From Nigrospora sphaerica (taxonomy: Eukaryota; Ascomycota; Sordariomycetes; Amphisphaeriales; Apiosporaceae), in NCBI GenBank assembly GCA_018287875.1, contig JAGVVL010000001.1:6510001-6574000 (forward strand): a stretch of 64,000 bases of DNA. The letters run 5' to 3'. Position 1 is the stretch's first letter, and the number at the start of each line of letters is the position of its first letter. The position numbers and the translations under genes were made by a program. The notes below the pieces were generated by a model. That model ran no database searches. It worked only from the letters and a program-made list of their open reading frames with translations, and was not told the DNA's origin. Shown one piece after another: positions 7,635 to 17,213 of this stretch.

Positions 7635-9617
7635 TCACTCTCCGGTCTCGCGCTTCACCGACGTTCCCTCCCCGCCGGCCTCGGCCCCGGGCGCGGCGGC
7701 GGCGCCGTCGTCCAGCAGCCGGTCCAGCTTGTCGTCCGGGACGGCCTGTGGCTGCACCGGCGCCGTGTCCCAAAGGGTGGCCTGCAGCGCGGGGTCGAGC
7801 GTGCGGAGGAGCGCGGCGTCCAGCAGGCCCTCGGCGAGGCCCGACGGCGGCGCGGGGTCGAAGGGGGTGCCCGCGTCGACAAAGCGAGGCGTCCCGGCGT
7901 CGCCGGCGTAGAGCCCGGGGGTCTCGGGCCCGTAGCCGGCGACGAAGTGGTCGTGGAAGATGGGCAGGCCGCCGCCGCCGCCGCCGCCAAAGCCGTCGAC
8001 GTCGCCCTCGTGGCCGTACAGCGACGGCTCCAGGTACAGAGCGGGCTCGTGCGACGCGGGGGGCGGGGCCGGCTGGTGCGGGTGCTGGTGGTGCTGGTGG
8101 TGGACCGGCACGGCGGCCGGGCCGTGGGGCGGCGGGCACGCGAAGGCCTCGGGGGGCGCGGGCGTGCCGTGGGCCGAGTATGAGGGGTAGGGGATGTGCG
8201 CGTGGGGGCCCAGGGCGGGCGTCGGCGAGGGGCGCGTCATGTAGAGGTTCTCGAGGGTGGCCGGGTCGAGGTAGGCCGGCGGCATCGGGTGGAGGGCCCG
8301 GTGGTGGTGGAGCTGCTGCATCGGCGCCGGTTCGTAGCGGGCCACCTCCTGCCGGTAGTACTCGCCGGGACCAGGATCGCCCCCGTACCCCATGGGCAGC
8401 GGCTTGCCGGCGTTCTGGTAGCTGTACTGCGCCACGGCGCGGCCCGGCGGCGGCAGAGGCTGCGCCGCTCGGAACGGCGAGTACACCGACGCCGCCGGCC
8501 CGCACGTGGGCTGGAATTCGGCGTCTCCCGGGTCGCCGCTCATGGCGCTCATGGCTCGCGTGGGCATGCCGGCCGGCCCGGCGCCCAGCCCCCCGAACAT
8601 GTCGGGCATCATCTCGAACTCGTCCTCGCCGCTCCCGGGCCCGGTCCCCTTCTTGTCCTTCTTGGGCTTGGCCGGCGCAAACTTGTAATTGGGGAAGGCG
8701 GCGGCGTGGTTGTCGCGCTCGATGCGCGCCCACTCGTTGTACTGGGCGACAATGTGCTCGGGCTCGGTCGCCCAGCCGTCGCCGCAGACGGCGCTCACGA
8801 CCTGGTGGTTCTCGTGCGACCAGAGATGCTTGACCCGCAGCTGGTGCCCCTTTCGGTAAAGCATGAAGGCGTTCATGGGCCGCTTGATCCGTTTCTGCGC
8901 CGTGTTCTCCCGCTCCTCTTGGCGCACCGCACTGGACCGCGTCACCCACGCCTCGATGTCGGCATCCTGGACCGCCGTCACCTCGTTGCACATCTCCGAG
9001 AGCGGCCGGGCAAATTTGTAAGTCCGCTCCGCGTCGTCCGGCTTCTTCTTCCGGCTCCGTGGCTTGGTCTTGGCCCTGGGCTTGCTGACACCCGCCGACT
9101 GCGAGCCGCGCAAGGGGTTCGTATCCGTGTGCCGCAACAAATAGCGTTTGCTGGGCACTACCAGCGGAGAGTGCGAGTACGACTGCGGCGTCGACTGGAA
9201 GAGACGCACCACGTTAGCCTGTAGGTACACTGGGCGCAGGGCAAAGCCGAAGTCGCCCCCGATACGAGGATCATCACGACGGGTGCTACTCACCGGCCCA
9301 ATGCTGGATGACACATCCTGTGGTAGCTCGGGATAGACTGAGTTGTAGTATGCGGGCGTGTCTGAATACTCCTCTGCCGGCGTGTAGCTACCGTATGGGT
9401 GAGACAGTTCGTGGTGCTGCTGAAGCTCAAAAGGGCTCTGACTCTGCACCTGGTGCTGGTAAGGGATGGGTTGATTGTAGCTGAGGAGGTGCTGGAAGCC
9501 GTTGGAAAAGTCCGTTGCGGTGACGTCTGGTCGTGGTTGCGAGGCCGCCGGTGAAGGGGGGTCCGTATTCGACATGTTTTCTTCAGGTGGATAGGAATCT
9601 TTGGCTCTGCCTGACAC
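7635..9617 (-). CDS. fmf-1: HMG-box transcription factor, FMF-1/Ste11-like
   Basis: Sequence-specific HMG-box factor of the group that includes Schizosaccharomyces Ste11, Neurospora FMF-1 and Podospora HMG5, which act upstream of mating-type and pheromone genes. Exon 1 9617-9294, intron 9293-9195 (GTGAGT, GCTAAC branch, CTCTTCCAG; 99 nt and open in frame), exon 2 9194-7635; 627 residues. The HMG box (about residues 212-280) contains KRPMNAFMLYRK, NHQVVSAVCGDGW and YKFAPAK, the Ste11-like version with a split tryptophan spacing. Just before it is a basic cluster KPRSRKKK, a likely nuclear signal. The rest is low-complexity: Gln/His/Pro/Tyr-rich N-terminus and a Pro/Ala/Gly/His-rich C-terminus with a Gly run and HHQHHQHPH-like stretch. 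A second start is available 14 codons in (MSNTDPP). The orthology is inferred from the box alone. Confidence 0.78.
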   Translation of the reverse strand: MSGRAKDSYPPEENMSNTDPPSPAASQPRPDVTATDFSNGFQHLLSYNQPIPYQHQVQSQSPFELQQHHELSHPYGSYTPAEEYSDTPAYYNSVYPELPQDVSSSIGPVSSTRRDDPRIGGDFGFALRPVYLQANVVRLFQSTPQSYSHSPLVVPSKRYLLRHTDTNPLRGSQSAGVSKPRAKTKPRSRKKKPDDAERTYKFARPLSEMCNEVTAVQDADIEAWVTRSSAVRQEERENTAQKRIKRPMNAFMLYRKGHQLRVKHLWSHENHQVVSAVCGDGWATEPEHIVAQYNEWARIERDNHAAAFPNYKFAPAKPKKDKKGTGPGSGEDEFEMMPDMFGGLGAGPAGMPTRAMSAMSGDPGDAEFQPTCGPAASVYSPFRAAQPLPPPGRAVAQYSYQNAGKPLPMGYGGDPGPGEYYRQEVARYEPAPMQQLHHHRALHPMPPAYLDPATLENLYMTRPSPTPALGPHAHIPYPSYSAHGTPAPPEAFACPPPHGPAAVPVHHQHHQHPHQPAPPPASHEPALYLEPSLYGHEGDVDGFGGGGGGGLPIFHDHFVAGYGPETPGLYAGDAGTPRFVDAGTPFDPAPPSGLAEGLLDAALLRTLDPALQATLWDTAPVQPQAVPDDKLDRLLDDGAAAAPGAEAGGEGTSVKRETGE

Positions 9618-12600
9618 TCGAGCGAAGCTGGTAAGAGATACCGGATTAGGTAGCTAGGGAGAAGGAGACCGATCAAGTGAGAGCCAGTCGATTCCAGCAA
9701 GGCGAAGCAGGGAAACAACGAGGCAGCAGAGACGAAGGCGAAGAGGAAAAAGAAGTTTCAGTACCAGCAGTCGCAAGTGAGCAAGCAACTCTCTGTCTCT
9801 CTCTCCCCCCCCCCTGCAGTGCTGTTCGCGCAAGTCAGAAACCTATGCCGGAGGATGGTGCAACCGGGATGAAGGGACGGTTCAGTACTGTCCCAGCGAA
9901 AGCCAAAAAGTTTGAAAGGAGTGGGTGGCCACAGGTGGGTAGGCTTCCTCGTGGATGAAGCTGAGTTTCTGAATCTGCGTCTCTCAGATACCGATTCTGA
10001 CGTCTTCACTCGCCCAGTCTGAGACTTGAATCCGAGCCTGGTGGACAAGACCTCGGCCCCCACGATAAATGATGTGTATGTCTGTACCACAAAAGAATGT
10101 ATTGGGCCAAATTCAGCCAGCCCGGGGACTGGGTAGGGAGCTTCTGGAAAAGTCAGGAATCTGACAAGAGAACACTGATGAGGTTAGCGACCAGGTCATA
10201 TCCCAACTGCAGAATGGCGCTCAAGGCGGAGGAGAGGATGGGCGGGCCTGAATGTAAGGCAGCGGTAGCTGAGCAACAACAACACGCCAGCAGCTGTCCG
10301 ACGGTCAGATCCGGGGGCTGTCAGTGACGAGAGCTGCAAGCCCCCCTGCACTCTACGTGTAGGTTTCCCCGTAGGGGTTTGTGTATGTGTGAGCGTGCGT
10401 ATGCGTAGGTACGTGTGCGTATCAACCAGAGGCCCTCTTGTGTAAGCTACGGCGCCTGTGCTATGCGGGCATGCGCACAGAAAGCACAAGGCGGTGGGCA
10501 GCGAAGAGACCTGTCAGAAACACCAGCGGTGGGTTTGTATCGTGCTAGTTCAGGGCCCCTACAGCAAGGCGAAGAGACCACTCTCGGCCTTGCCGACGGC
10601 CACTGATGGATTGTCCACCGGGTGTGGAGTATGGTTGGGTGTAGGAGATGCGGGTTCGGGTACATGCAAAATACAGACAACAGAAAGAGAATGCTCCGTG
10701 CTTACCTAGCCGGCGCAGGATGCAGATGCAGTACGGTACAGTACAGCAGCTCTTTGCCCAGCAAAGCAGAAGCAGGTATCCCGGGTATCCACCTGTGTCG
10801 CGAGACTTCGGAGGCGGCTGATTAGAAAGCGTACACAGGCTCGGAATAGTTGTGTACGCAAGCGAGGAACGGTAGACAGGCCGAAAATGGTGTATACCGG
10901 AAGAGCTGATGGCTGAGTCTCCGGGGATATGCAAACTGCTGCTGGCCACGGCCAAACACCTTACCTCGGGTGGAGGATGGGGATACAGCCTGCTTGCGCC
11001 TACGTCCGCGTGTTCTGCGGAAGCTGTTTTCTTTCGCCTCTGTGGCCTGCTCGGCTTGTTTCTGTTGCTACTTGCTTCTCGCCTTCCTGCGGCTCGTGGG
11101 CAGGGCCGGTCGGGCGGACAGTCAGGCGCGCAGAATGCGGCTGGTAACACTTTCGGGTGCTTGTTGGCTGTGAGTTTTGGTACCTTCTGGTGCTTGGGGG
11201 CCTGATGTGGGCAAGCAACTGTGGTGTTGCTCCTCAAAGGCCGATGCCGAGGAGAAAGACCTGGTAATTTTTATGTTGGTTCGCTCTGACGACGGCTATG
11301 TGCCGAGAACAAACTCTTTCGAGTCGATGGACGGGCGTTCAAGGCGAGCAGGGGTAAATGAGGGTTGAATTTCAGGGTCGCTTTTGTCCTTCTTGTTCTC
11401 ATCGTCTTTGGCTACCTCGTACATGAAATGACTTCTTTGAAGGAGGACCAACGACCAACAGCCATGAGGGAAAGAGGGCCAAGGAAAGACAGAGGTGGGA
11501 GCCGAAGGAAAAGCAGAGCACATCGGCCTTCCCATGGGACTCCAAGACTTTGTATGGTTCTTTGCGACCTGAGGGCGTGGCTTTGAAGCCAAAGGTCCAA
11601 AGGAAACCCATTACCGCATTCGGCAAGTCCAAAGAGAGACGGGGGTAGGTAAGAGTCGTGTATGTGAGTGTATACGGCCAGGCCCGGCTGGATAAGAGCG
11701 AACGCAGCAGTTACCCGTGCTCAGAGAACAGAGGCCCAGGTTAGCCGTCTCGCCGGCTTCTAGAGACCCCGAGCTGGATCAATCCAAGTCAAGCTTCACA
11801 TCGCCGTGTTCGGTACCGGCTTGTTTCTATTTCCGAAGCTGGGGTCAGTCGGCACATTCCGGCCACGGCCTCCTGGTCGAGTATAGTGGGCAGTCTCCCG
11901 AATATACCGTCCGTACCCGCTGGTCTCAAAGCGGTAAAAACTTATGGCAAAGGTATGTATGCTGGTGCGTACGTATGTACACAAGTAGCAGCACGTAGGC
12001 ACAGACAGTCTCGCGGAAGCACAGCGAGCAGATATGCCATAGATCCATCCCCATGGCATACCCATCCCATGTCTGCGCCGGCTCAAGCCAGGCACAGGGG
12101 GGGATATGGAGCAGGATACACACGGGACTGGACCTTGACCCCGCCCCCAATCGTCGTCTGTTTGTACGGCGCACCGTCTGCGTGCGGGTGTTAGGTTGCC
12201 AGGGACGCCGTGGAGAGAGGGCGGCGACTGGAATGCGATTTCTGGCGTTCCTTTGCCCGAAAACGGAAGTTGCGATAGGTCTGTGGCTGCCGCGTTCCAC
12301 CCAGGGTCTGTCGCTGAAGAAGTGATTCATTCCATTCCCTGGCATGGGATTGGCCCGCACGCGTTGGAGCTCAACCCTTATGTAGCTGCATGCATGCAAC
12401 GCATGTACCTAGTTTGCGGAAAGAGGCTACGCAGGTACATGCCGACTACGAAATATACCTCCTACCCCTACATAACCTATCTGGCTTGGTTGTGCTACTG
12501 GCAATAACGGAAACGGGACCAGTTGATGGTCAAGGCGCCTACATACCACTTCATGCACCCATGATATATACGCGAAGCACCACGCATGTATACGAGTCAC

Positions 12601-14273: not shown

Positions 14274-15743
14274 TCAGTCATGCGGGAAAGCTGGGCCTTG
14301 ATTCCCGTCAGCGCCCTATACCCTCCTTGCATGGGGGGTTTGGACAGACTTACCGAGCTCAGGATGCACAAGCATCCCGTCTGCGAACACATCTACCGTG
14401 TTGGCCTTTGCATAGTCCATCAGAGAGTCCCAGCGGACGCATTGGTGAGTGCTTGTGACGTTGTGCTGGACGCTGAGGTTAGTTTCGCCCTAGTAGGTTC
14501 TGTAAAGACTGTCTCTGAACGACACTGCTGCAGAGATGTGGAATTGGCAAAGACTATTTGCCCCTGCAGGAGGCAAAGCAGTTCGGGGCGGTTCTTGTGC
14601 TAGCAAGGCGGATCAGGAGTCTCGAGAGTTATTTGCTTACCAGAGGCAGCCGCTTCCCAGGGGCCCATTTCATCGTCTCGATAGTCGGGTCGGCCTTGCA
14701 CATAACATAGGCCTTCAACGCTCCAAGGCAATGTTCTGCAACGCGTCAGCTAGGTTGTGCCCCTGAATGGCCCGTTGGGCGAGACGGTGTCCGGCAGGCA
14801 GGTATCTCTTCACTTACCCGTATGGCTCCTCAGCTGCTTCTTTTCCTCGGCCGTTTGATTTGAATCACCGTATCGCTCCGGGTAAAGCTGGTGATAGATG
14901 TGCTTCTAGAGAAGACGACAGACCGTCAGCGACAACATACGTAGGCCCCTCAGCGCAGCAGAATAGTAACTCACGAGGCAATGCAAATGATGGAAAGCCA
15001 TCATGGACCCAAAATACCGACCATCCGGGAAGCGCACGGCCTGATCGAGCCGTCCAACCTCTTCGATGAAGGATTTGGGGAGGCCGATGTTGTGGTCTGG
15101 TGGTGGGAAAGCGCAAGGTTAGGACAAAGCAACGAACAGCAACGCGCGGAAGCGGTCACAGAGGTTTCATACATCGAACTAGTTCATGCCTGGATTTGGG
15201 AAGCATCAGGATCAGCAAGTTTCTTGGGCGGTACGCATGGAACGCGGGGAACCCTCATCCGATTGCCGTCACTCGCGTTTGTAGGGGCGGAAGAGGTAAC
15301 AATCGGAAGAGCAGAAGAAGGCCTTTACCGAGGGGAGAGATCTTACCAGTTGCTGTCGATTTCTTTGCTCGGCTCGCCAAAGTAGGCACCGCTCTCTTTC
15401 CAGTCCAGGTAGTCCACCTCACGGGTTTCGTACTTGATATAGTCCATGGCGGGGGCTAGTCAAAAACCCGGCGACGGTCAGCAGATACCGGCGGTGGCTC
15501 TTTCGAGACGCACTCACAGCGAATAATGTTGGCGCCGAACAACGCATTGTGGCCCGAGGTTTTCTTCGCCAGCACGACGACGACGAGAGTATACAGGGCC
15601 AACGCCAGCAAAGCCGCTATAGACTGCCAGCATCTTCGGAATACGTTGCTCGAACGGGTCCGGGCATTGATGGATTTCATGCCGGTGCCATCTTCCAAGG
15701 AGTCTTGGGTCGGAACGGACGCGTATCCCTTCTGTTTCTCCAT
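14274..15743 (-). CDS. UstYa-like oxidative cyclase (DUF3328)
   Basis: Member of the UstYa family, membrane-anchored oxidases that cyclise ribosomal peptides in ustiloxin, phomopsin and asperipin pathways. Eight exons: 15743-15518, 15455-15347, 15189-15173, 15096-14975, 14905-14818, 14735-14641, 14465-14354, 14296-14274; every junction has GT/AG and phases agree; 263 residues. One membrane helix lies near residues 38-56, then the typical PAMDYIKYE and SGAYFGEPSKEIDSNW segments. Both signature motifs are intact: HHLHC (153-157) and HTEHC (186-190). The C-terminal part has the expected STHQCVRWDSLMDYA and VHPELGPAF. An in-frame ATG at 15767 would add eight residues. The 17-nt third exon is needed to keep frame and gives the family sequence WHELVRYHNIGLPK. 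It lies divergent from the repeat precursor at 16788. Confidence 0.93.
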
Positions 15744-16787
15744 GGGGAGTGGTTGACTCTGGACCAAAAGGCGCGCGCAAGAGATTCAAATCTACACCGT
15801 ATGCGATACAGGTTTGCGGGCGCTGGGACCGGGCTGGGTTATGGCCAGAAGTGTCTCTCTCTGTCTCTCGGAGATGACCAGTAAAACTAAGGTGTAGACG
15901 GCATCGCGGGGGAAACACGTCGCCGGCACTTGCCGCTTACCGGGTACAACAAACCAGGCCCGCCGGCAAGGCAAAGGGCGATCTGGATCAGACAAGGGTC
16001 TTGGCACTAGAATCCTACGAGAGGGGCTGATAGGCAACTTGCCTGGTTCCGGAAGGCGCATCGTAACATGGTCGGCGTCCACCGTCATCATGTTGCGGAT
16101 CGGGGCCCCTCGTGCTCGCGAGTGTACAAAATGCTCCTCTGGGTACTTGCCCGCGCACATTGGAGTCGGACCGGTTGGCCGAGGCCCCCCTGCGTGGCGA
16201 GGGTCTCGGCTCTCGGAATTTCGTAGTATCACGGGTTACCATCGCCTTCCTCTTTGGTCTACTCTGCTCCATGCAGGTCTCGTATAGGAGGGGTTGATAA
16301 GGGATCACGACATCAGCAAGGGCTTTCCCCAGTAGACAGATGCCCCATGCCAAGGCGGTGGCCACCGAATGGTGTACTAACGGCTGAATACAAGCAACCT
16401 TGGGCAGATGCTTGACATGCCGGGCGATTGGCCACAAACCAAAGTACCGCACCGGAAGGCAGGCGCAGGTCGATCCTCCTCACGGCTTGGCATCACCGGC
16501 CCGCCTGGGGGAGTGCATGAACGAGGGGAACATGAGCGGGAGAATGAACCCGCCGAGTATCGGTGTAAGAAACGGGGAACCGCTTGAAACGTGCCTCACA
16601 GGCGGGCGGCGATCTGGGTCACCTCGGTTGGCCACAGCTGGATATAAAGAAAAGACAATAGGCGCCCGGGGTACACGGGCTTTTGACTCCAGGTTAACCA
16701 CGAGTTCCCGGGCCATTATATCGATTAATCCTTCTTTACCTGCAGTCTCACCTCTCGACGTAGCAAGTACCTACTGAGACATACGCC
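15744..16787. promoter_or_regulatory. divergent promoter between UstYa-like gene and RiPP precursor
   Basis: A 1-kb spacer from which both putative pathway genes are transcribed outward. On the plus strand a TATAAAG at 16643-16649 sits 139 bp upstream of the precursor ATG, a plausible core promoter. CGG/CCG half-sites that could suit a Zn2Cys6 regulator occur, for example CGG-N4-CCG near 16171. Frames on the minus strand (15792-16232, 16015-16452) resemble nothing known and are treated as chance. Co-regulation is inferred from the arrangement. Confidence 0.5.
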
Positions 16788-17213
16788 ATGAAGCTGACCA
16801 GTGTATTCCTGGCCTCATTGGCGAGCCATGCGTTGGCTCTGCCTCTAGAACAGCCGGGTCCGGACCCTCGAAGCACTTGGACTTCTGTATACGCTGACCA
16901 AGTTGTAGCCAAGGCCATCCGTGCCACCGCTGAGAGCCTGGACGCCGACCTGCAATACTTTCCCACTAAGCGGGCCGAGGAGCAGGACGCCGACCTGCAA
17001 TACTTTCCCACCAAGCGGGCCGAGGAGCAGGACGCCGACCTGCAATACTTTCCCACCAAGCGGGCCGAGAAGCAGGATGCCGACCTGGTGAGAAAACCTC
17101 ACCCTACCATCACTGGGGGGGCAGCCCAAGTCTCGATCCCAGGGCGGTATCTCTCGTACCACACGAACACGTACTGATTTTGCGTGCTACAGCAATACGA
17201 TCCCAGCAAGTGA
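16788..17213 (+). CDS. secreted multi-repeat RiPP precursor peptide (dikaritin type)
   Basis: Putative precursor of a ribosomally made, Kex2-released cyclic peptide. Exon 1 16788-17087, intron 17088-17192 (GTGAGA...GTGCTACAG, phase 0), exon 2 17193-17213; 106 residues. Residues 1-17 form a signal peptide (MKLTSVFLASLASHALA). A pro-region follows to residue 51, then three 15-residue repeats DADLQYFPTKRAEEQ (52-66, 67-81, and 82-96, the last with AEKQ). The intron cuts a fourth, shortened repeat, so exon 2 completes DADL as QYDPSK and then stops; this continuity is strong support for the splice. Each full repeat ends in Lys-Arg, a Kex2 site, after a Tyr-containing core (YFPT or LQYFPT), the layout of UstA and PhomA. 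An AATAAA lies at 17352. The divergent UstYa-like gene is the expected partner. Product and core limits are inferred. Confidence 0.9.
16941..17087 (+). repeat. 45-bp tandem repeats encoding the RiPP core units
   Basis: Units at 16941-16985, 16986-17030 and 17031-17075, plus a 12-nt start of a fourth at 17076. The three full units differ from each other by only two base changes: one synonymous (ACT/ACC Thr) and one giving Glu to Lys in the spacer of unit 3. Such identity at silent sites points to recent duplication or gene conversion. Confidence 0.95.

Follow-up and report, generated by a model that had tools for sequence, protein, structure and literature searches.

A probable minimal, single-UstY dikaritin-type RiPP locus in Nigrospora sphaerica, with a tentative DADL-x-Y signature

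A 64,000-nucleotide stretch of Nigrospora sphaerica DNA (the window, whose numbering is used below) contains a divergent pair of genes at 14274..17213, one encoding a UstYa/DUF3328-family oxidase, here called UstY, and the other a putatively secreted repeat precursor. The question raised by this locus is whether so small a pair is devoted to a ribosomally synthesized and post-translationally modified peptide (RiPP) of the dikaritin/ust-RiPS type, as a sequence-only reading of the window had proposed: it described a DUF3328 enzyme with both His-Cys motifs, a secreted precursor with three KR-ended 15-residue repeats, and a pairing characteristic of dikaritin RiPPs. Gene models place both genes at these coordinates, and the evidence presented below makes it probable that the locus is a minimal, single-UstY pathway of this class. 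This kind of locus, including the one-UstY arrangement, is already known from asperipin-2a (PMC7329392, PMC6514808). For a wider family marked by the letters DADL-x-Y, comparison of sequences provides a defensible but tentative case. The features of the pair are as follows.

14274..15743, minus strand: UstY, a UstYa/DUF3328-family oxidase gene; 8 exons, 263 residues, frame intact
15743-15518, 15455-15347, 15189-15173, 15096-14975, 14905-14818, 14735-14641, 14465-14354 and 14296-14274, minus strand: the UstY exons, stop included
15567..15623, minus strand: predicted N-terminal membrane helix of UstY, residues 41-59, SIAALLALALYTLVVVVLA; Kyte-Doolittle peak 2.65 over 19 residues
14978..14992, minus strand: first HxxHC motif, HHLHC, residues 153-157, in exon 4
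14728..14824, minus strand: second HxxHC motif, HTEHC, residues 186-190, split by intron 5
15744..16787, no strand: intergenic region between divergent start codons 1.04 kb apart; a possible shared promoter of both genes
16788..17087, plus strand: precursor exon 1, encoding a start that resembles a signal peptide (MKLTSVFLASLASHALA), the leader, the three complete repeats and residues one to four of a fourth
16941..17075, plus strand: precursor repeats of 45 nt each, DADLQYFPTKRAEEQ, DADLQYFPTKRAEEQ and DADLQYFPTKRAEKQ, starting at 16941, 16986 and 17031
17088..17192, plus strand: precursor intron, GT..AG, after the DADL of the fourth repeat
17193..17213, plus strand: precursor exon 2, QYDPSK and stop, ending the degenerate fourth repeat without KR

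The assignment of UstY to its family rests on a match of the Pfam profile PF11807 (UstYa) with 153 bits against a cut-off of 25 (E 1.4e-44), covering profile positions 4-220 of 220, and on the two motifs, which begin at residues 153 and 186. H186, H189 and C190 are invariant in all nine aligned sequences. At the first motif seven of the nine have HHLHC and eight fit HxxHC, P0006 having HNLHC; it is absent from homologue P0008, which appears to be mis-translated at that point. All seven introns are GT..AG, and the exon joins were placed by these sites together with an alignment with eight public homologues. The third exon is a micro-exon of 17 nt, and the residues that it encodes fit a conserved WHEL-RYHN stretch. 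An earlier model of 276 residues was dropped on the strength of the homologue alignment, since its exon 7 acceptor lay 24 nt too early and its last intron was unspliced; the 276-residue model was used for the Pfam scan and, cut to 265 residues, for the homologue search, the search of the PDB and the alignment, and the corrected model of 263 residues was used for the paralogue comparison and the tree. No UstYa relative was found in the PDB by sequence (three chance matches, E 0.43-0.93). A 2025 paper, cited in PMC12186524, reportedly speaks, in its title, of copper-dependent macrocyclisation by a DUF3328 enzyme.

The precursor gene adjoins UstY divergently and encodes, from an ATG at 16788, 106 residues in two exons with an intact frame. 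It contains three units of 15 residues, DADLQYFPTKRAE[E/K]Q, and then a degenerate fourth (DADL and QYDPSK, on either side of the intron) that the sequence-only reading had missed. One synonymous change and one E-to-K change distinguish the three full units, Tandem Repeats Finder reported a period of 45 with 3.3 copies and 97% match, and there are three Kex2-type KR sites. The N terminus is hydrophobic and signal-peptide-like, as judged by hydropathy only, which is a weak test. The genome contains a single copy of the precursor, with one strong match (E 5.7e-61) among three reported, the others having E values of 0.1 and 0.9, and a dibasic-repeat screen found no second open reading frame of this kind within the window. 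A public protein database of 5.8 billion sequences, in which candidates were found through exact five-residue words, yielded one close relative among three candidates scored. This relative, P0011, lies on an 846-base contig and consists of four units DADLQYFPSKRAEEQ, followed by DADL and then by unrelated letters. It thus leaves the repeat at the exact start point of the window precursor's intron, so that the P0011 contig is likely to be genomic DNA, with the position of the intron likely conserved; letters further downstream are compatible with QYxPSK-stop in another frame, as judged from the protein letters. Between the two fungi, then, the unit, the joint and, probably, the intron position have been kept, with T replaced by S in the core and the number of units differing. 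A chance repeat was ruled out as an artefact by the in-frame, 97%-matching 45-nt units, the kept KR and the existence of P0011. The letters of the repeat, which the sequence-only reading had not recognised from described products, and those of related repeats were likewise not found in the literature text searched, which did not extend to the supplementary tables of the survey discussed next, where relatives may be listed.

How does this pair compare with characterised systems? A survey of Kex2-processed repeat proteins (KEPs) counted 7,878 of them in 1,461 strains, 1,758 (22%) with a DUF3328 neighbour (30.1% in Ascomycota), most commonly in the adjacent position (PMC7329392). Repeats with such neighbours contain Tyr in 65.6% of cases, versus 38.2% for those without, and DUF3328 proteins are indispensable for cyclisation of the Tyr-cross-linked ustiloxins, asperipin-2a and phomopsins (PMC7329392). 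The window precursor resembles the KEPs with a nearby DUF3328 gene in its signal-peptide-like start, its tandem repeats between KR sites and its DUF3328 neighbour (PMC7329392). According to a 2021 review cited in PMC12048977, the DUF3328 enzyme defines the dikaritin/ust-RiPS class, and the window locus shows the attributes of that class: a signal-peptide-like N terminus, repeated cores bounded by Kex2 sites and a DUF3328 gene close by. The first definition of dikaritins, based on phomopsin, called for a tyrosinase, a methyltransferase, several DUF3328 genes and a transporter or peptidase; the window locus does not show this set, which later definitions no longer require (PMC12048977).

The closest parallel is the asperipin-2a locus of Aspergillus flavus (aprA, aprY, aprT and aprR), which likewise combines a single UstY-type enzyme with a secreted repeat precursor and has no tyrosinase or cluster peptidase (PMC6514808, PMC12048977); AprY has been proposed to act alone in the macrocyclisation (PMC6514808). 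The two differ in the core, FYYTGY in asperipin-2a and YFPT here, and in the transporter and reductase of the asperipin cluster, neither of which was recognised beside the window pair among the scanned open reading frames. The ustiloxin B locus (UstA, UstYa, UstYb and UstQ) shares UstYa-family enzymes and a core that has an acidic motif before it and KR after it, but it has two UstY enzymes, a tyrosinase, further tailoring genes and 16 repeats, as against one UstY and three repeats plus one degenerate repeat here (PMC6514808). In UstA the YAIG cores are flanked by ED and KR (PMC6514808); YFPT stands in the same way between DADLQ and KR, and the simplest reading is therefore a Tyr-initial core of four residues. 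The phomopsin locus also has a secreted repeat precursor, DUF3328 enzymes and a Tyr core but, unlike the window, contains five DUF3328 genes, a tyrosinase and a methyltransferase (PMC7329392, PMC6514808).

These observations provide the outline of a model. We predict that, once the two genes are expressed, the signal peptide would take the precursor into the secretory pathway, where UstY would act as an oxidase anchored in the membrane, its two HxxHC motifs probably facing the lumen. UstY would recognise the acidic DADL stretch and oxidise the core, which begins with the Tyr placed two residues beyond DADL (YFPT in the three full repeats), the simplest modification being a cross-link of the Tyr side chain with loss of 2 H. 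Kex2 would then cleave after KR to give AEEQDADLQYFPT-KR units, which would be trimmed to the core.

The model has UstY as the only modifying enzyme, and the sequence-only reading had indeed reported one UstYa gene and no tailoring genes nearby, a description that held up as far as it was tested. The PF11807 search reported one exon of the single UstY gene in the window. Genome-wide searches gave 59 matches for tyrosinase and one for S41 peptidase, none of them in the window, and none of the 103 listed matches for cytochrome P450 fell there (only 92 of 323 candidates were scored). Pfam scans, which took in 41 of the 71 stop-to-stop open reading frames of at least 180 residues and one shorter frame, the rest mostly overlapping scanned frames, detected no tailoring-enzyme domain; transporters and methyltransferases were sought only by these scans, which genes built solely of short exons could escape. 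With no tailoring cluster recognised nearby, one UstY may act alone, as has been proposed for AprY.

Beyond adjacency, the pairing of enzyme and precursor is supported by the relative P0011 and by a second pair elsewhere in the same genome. The PF11807 search gave 52 UstYa exon matches genome-wide, and 20 stretches (numbered with L) were examined that cover 14 other UstYa loci, a non-random set holding most of the stronger matches. The closest paralogue of UstY genome-wide lies at C5:4263267-4263800 (best non-self match, E 1e-18, 51% over 73 residues), and its full model is 43% identical to the window UstY over 220 residues. It too stands in a divergent pair.

L027:2635-3083, minus strand, and L027:4274-5406, plus strand (C5:4.2611-4.2639 Mb): paralogous divergent pair, with repeat DADLAYNKPAAVARAEL

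The start codons of this paralogue and its precursor are 1.19 kb apart. The C5 precursor gene includes an exon for the signal peptide and a GT..AG intron, and it encodes six units, of which five are DADLAYNKPAAVARAEL and the last ends in AAVAK-stop. The pair lies about 35 kb from a contig end, and its GC content is 0.49 compared with 0.59 in the window. Only two DADL-x-Y precursors turned up genome-wide, one next to each of the two closest UstY genes, and in both cases (2/2) the DADL-x-Y repeat has an RAE joint downstream and the neighbouring UstY belongs to the same subfamily. When the C5 and window units were compared, 36 of 5000 shuffles reached the score; when the window unit was set against seven further UstYa-linked units, between 903 and 3243 of 5000 did so.

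A profile built from three precursors extended the signature to Colletotrichum, where P0012-P0015, annotated as hypothetical, carry DADLAYNKP units (E 8.5e-11, 1.3e-5, 4.3e-4 and 2.4; 7,991 candidates scored); in the match at E 2.4 the unit was recognised by eye. These proteins resemble the window precursor in their signal-peptide-like start, DADL-x-Y repeats and RAE joints, and differ from it in the core, YN[K/M]P[A/S], in their monobasic joints and in having two or three repeats; in three of the four (P0012-P0014) the last unit ends in AK. Taken together, the paralogous pairing, the likeness of the repeats and the Colletotrichum units provide our best evidence for a partnership of enzyme and precursor and for DADL-x-Y as the part read by the enzyme, although this is a correlation and not a proof.

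On the enzyme side, the homologue search gave ten matches from 1,224 candidates. Five are 55-61% identical to UstY, from Thozetella sp. PMI_491, Xylariales sp. AK1849, two Coniochaeta strains and a 1,246-base contig; more distant ones come from Microdochium, Metarhizium acridum and Biscogniauxia, along with two fragments on other contigs. On the 1,246-base contig the homologue, P0003, runs uninterrupted for 280 residues, which suggests, without proof, that this contig is a spliced transcript from another fungus. The UstY tree is weak: one of its nine inner branches is starred and four are open; the window clade, at 92/87, is open, the C5 paralogue (L027) groups with Metarhizium at 92/93, and the outgroup branches are long.

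Based on these results we speculate, in a proposal that we hold slightly more likely to fail than to stand, that a distinct UstY subfamily uses DADL-x-Y as its recognition signature and has moved through the Sordariomycetes as a two-gene divergent cassette. In such a cassette the core after Tyr would be free to change (YFP[T/S], YNKP[A/S]), the joint could be KR or plain AR, and one UstY would be sufficient. The AR branch would have been missed by mining for dibasic sites, so that hidden minimal fungal RiPPs, those of Colletotrichum included, would exist. The KEP survey required three or more repeats between KR, KK, RK or RR, a rule that the DADLAYNKP type, having no dibasic joints, would fail (PMC7329392).

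Several observations weigh against reading the window pair as a minimal dikaritin-type locus. The C5 precursor has no dibasic joints between its repeats, with AR where the window precursor has KR, so Kex2 processing is not family-wide. The similarity of the two repeat units, measured against shuffles, is only moderately strong. No Colletotrichum UstY was among the matches listed for the word-limited search of 1,224 candidates, nor was an annotated DADL-x-Y precursor among the matches listed for the genera with UstY homologues, including Thozetella, Xylariales AK1849 and Coniochaeta; the precursor searches were word-limited (3 candidates scored with the window precursor, 7,991 with the profile), and short repetitive genes may be unannotated. 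At seven of the 14 other UstYa loci no repeat precursor was seen, which means that UstYa genes are not always partnered. These precursors were sought by a dibasic-segment screen, Tandem Repeats Finder and reading of frames, and ones below the thresholds could be missed. An AlphaFold2 model of the UstY homologue P0001, built from eight sequences, reached a mean predicted local distance difference test score of 43.7 and was left unused. Finally, proteins of the UstYa family also act in non-RiPP pathways, and in hydroxylation and chlorination (PMC12048977).

At the other seven of the 14 loci, clear tandem-repeat precursors were present, eight altogether: two related AGWLY types (C9 and C10), a di-histidine type (C1), and others on C7, C5 (three) and C10. 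Pairing is thus common and the genome rich in such pairs, in line with the survey (PMC7329392).

These considerations bear on what else the window pair might be. In one alternative, the precursor would be a Kex2-processed repeat protein of the ordinary sort, releasing linear secreted peptides of a signalling or pheromone-like kind, and UstY would act elsewhere or at least not on this precursor. Most surveyed KEPs (6,120 of 7,878, in the 1,461 strains) have no DUF3328 neighbour, and the yeast alpha-factor is linear, but only three pheromone-annotated KEPs had such a neighbour (PMC7329392). We regard this alternative as unlikely, since the closest UstY paralogue is likewise divergent to the only other DADL-x-Y precursor found in the genome, and since a random site would fall within 1.2 kb of a UstYa gene with a probability of only about 0.24%, a rough figure that takes the 52 exon matches as genes, each with 2.4 kb, in 51.6 Mb.

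Equally improbable, in our judgement, is that UstY modifies the peptide without macrocyclisation, for example by desaturation or hydroxylation of core residues, to give a linear modified peptide. A phomopsin paper reportedly announces, in its title, the installation of dehydroamino acids by UstYa-family proteins, which we count in favour of this possibility. The third position of YFPT is Pro, where ustiloxin and phomopsin have a cross-linked Ile. The reactions reported for UstYa-family proteins include the hydroxylation and chlorination mentioned above (PMC12048977). On the other side, both precursor types have repeats with a Tyr directly after DADL-x, and it is at Tyr that ustiloxins, asperipin-2a and phomopsins are cross-linked (PMC7329392). 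The least likely alternative, a decayed or silent RiPP remnant that has lost its tailoring genes and gone out of use, would agree with a window that contains no tyrosinase or S41 match and no Pfam-supported tailoring gene among the scanned frames, but it is made very doubtful by frames intact over eight and two exons, near-identical repeats, preserved motifs, the uninterrupted frame of P0003 and the precedent of asperipin-2a as a one-UstY pathway without tyrosinase or peptidase (PMC12048977). A minimal, single-UstY dikaritin-type locus is the explanation that we favour for the window pair.

The precursors at the other UstYa loci are diverse. Related precursors at L016:3174-3674 (plus strand) and L017:3164-3697 (minus strand), with units DNNVDAAATRAGWLY[T/I], lie next to two UstYa clusters, one on C9 and one on C10, which look related as well. 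A precursor-like frame at L021:8100-9100 (plus strand) has ten PHHKTK units (Pro-His-His) and recalls the di-histidine KEP types with DUF3328 of the survey (PMC7329392). At L031:6090-6281 (minus strand; C5:1.314-1.324 Mb) a precursor with three units of type SETPEVIEDYVGGFEVAKR lies near two UstYa and several tyrosinase matches, and this locus looks like a classic tyrosinase-bearing dikaritin cluster. In the C5 region of the paralogous pair (L027), a second precursor, at L028:6111-6491 (plus strand), has six KR-joined DEYG[I/T]TMKC units and is downstream of another UstYa match. Two further stretches, each centred on a UstYa gene, contain the repeat precursors ESIYEDPKTATLPYAPGSLKPVEVR, with R joints and no KR (L024:6500-7000, plus strand), and AYLVSYPEEDDKVAKR (L030:3368-3700, minus strand).

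Within the window, the neighbours identified by Pfam are of a housekeeping type and include a dihydrouridine synthase, MRP-L53, Sec20, an HMG-box protein and a PHD protein, together with ion-channel domains (which we read as calcium-channel-like), a cyclin, ribosomal L2, a polysaccharide deacetylase, PAP2 and RIC1. The ribosomal L2 is close to mitochondrial chains, the nearest being 6ywe_B (481 bits; the next, 289 bits), which we take to be from the Neurospora crassa mitoribosome. The HMG-box gene, at 7635-9653 (minus strand), adjoins the locus on the left; a link to mating type was considered and rejected, as the gene matches HMG_box in Pfam and MATalpha only below the cut-off.

As an enzyme and precursor pair beside which no other tailoring genes were recognised, the locus offers about as simple a setting as one could have for studying how UstYa enzymes locate their cores and oxidise them. 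The C5 paralogous pair retains DADL-x-Y with a different core, and this points to a concrete motif for recognition. These findings also suggest that repeat precursors without dibasic joints have probably been missed by surveys that demand them.

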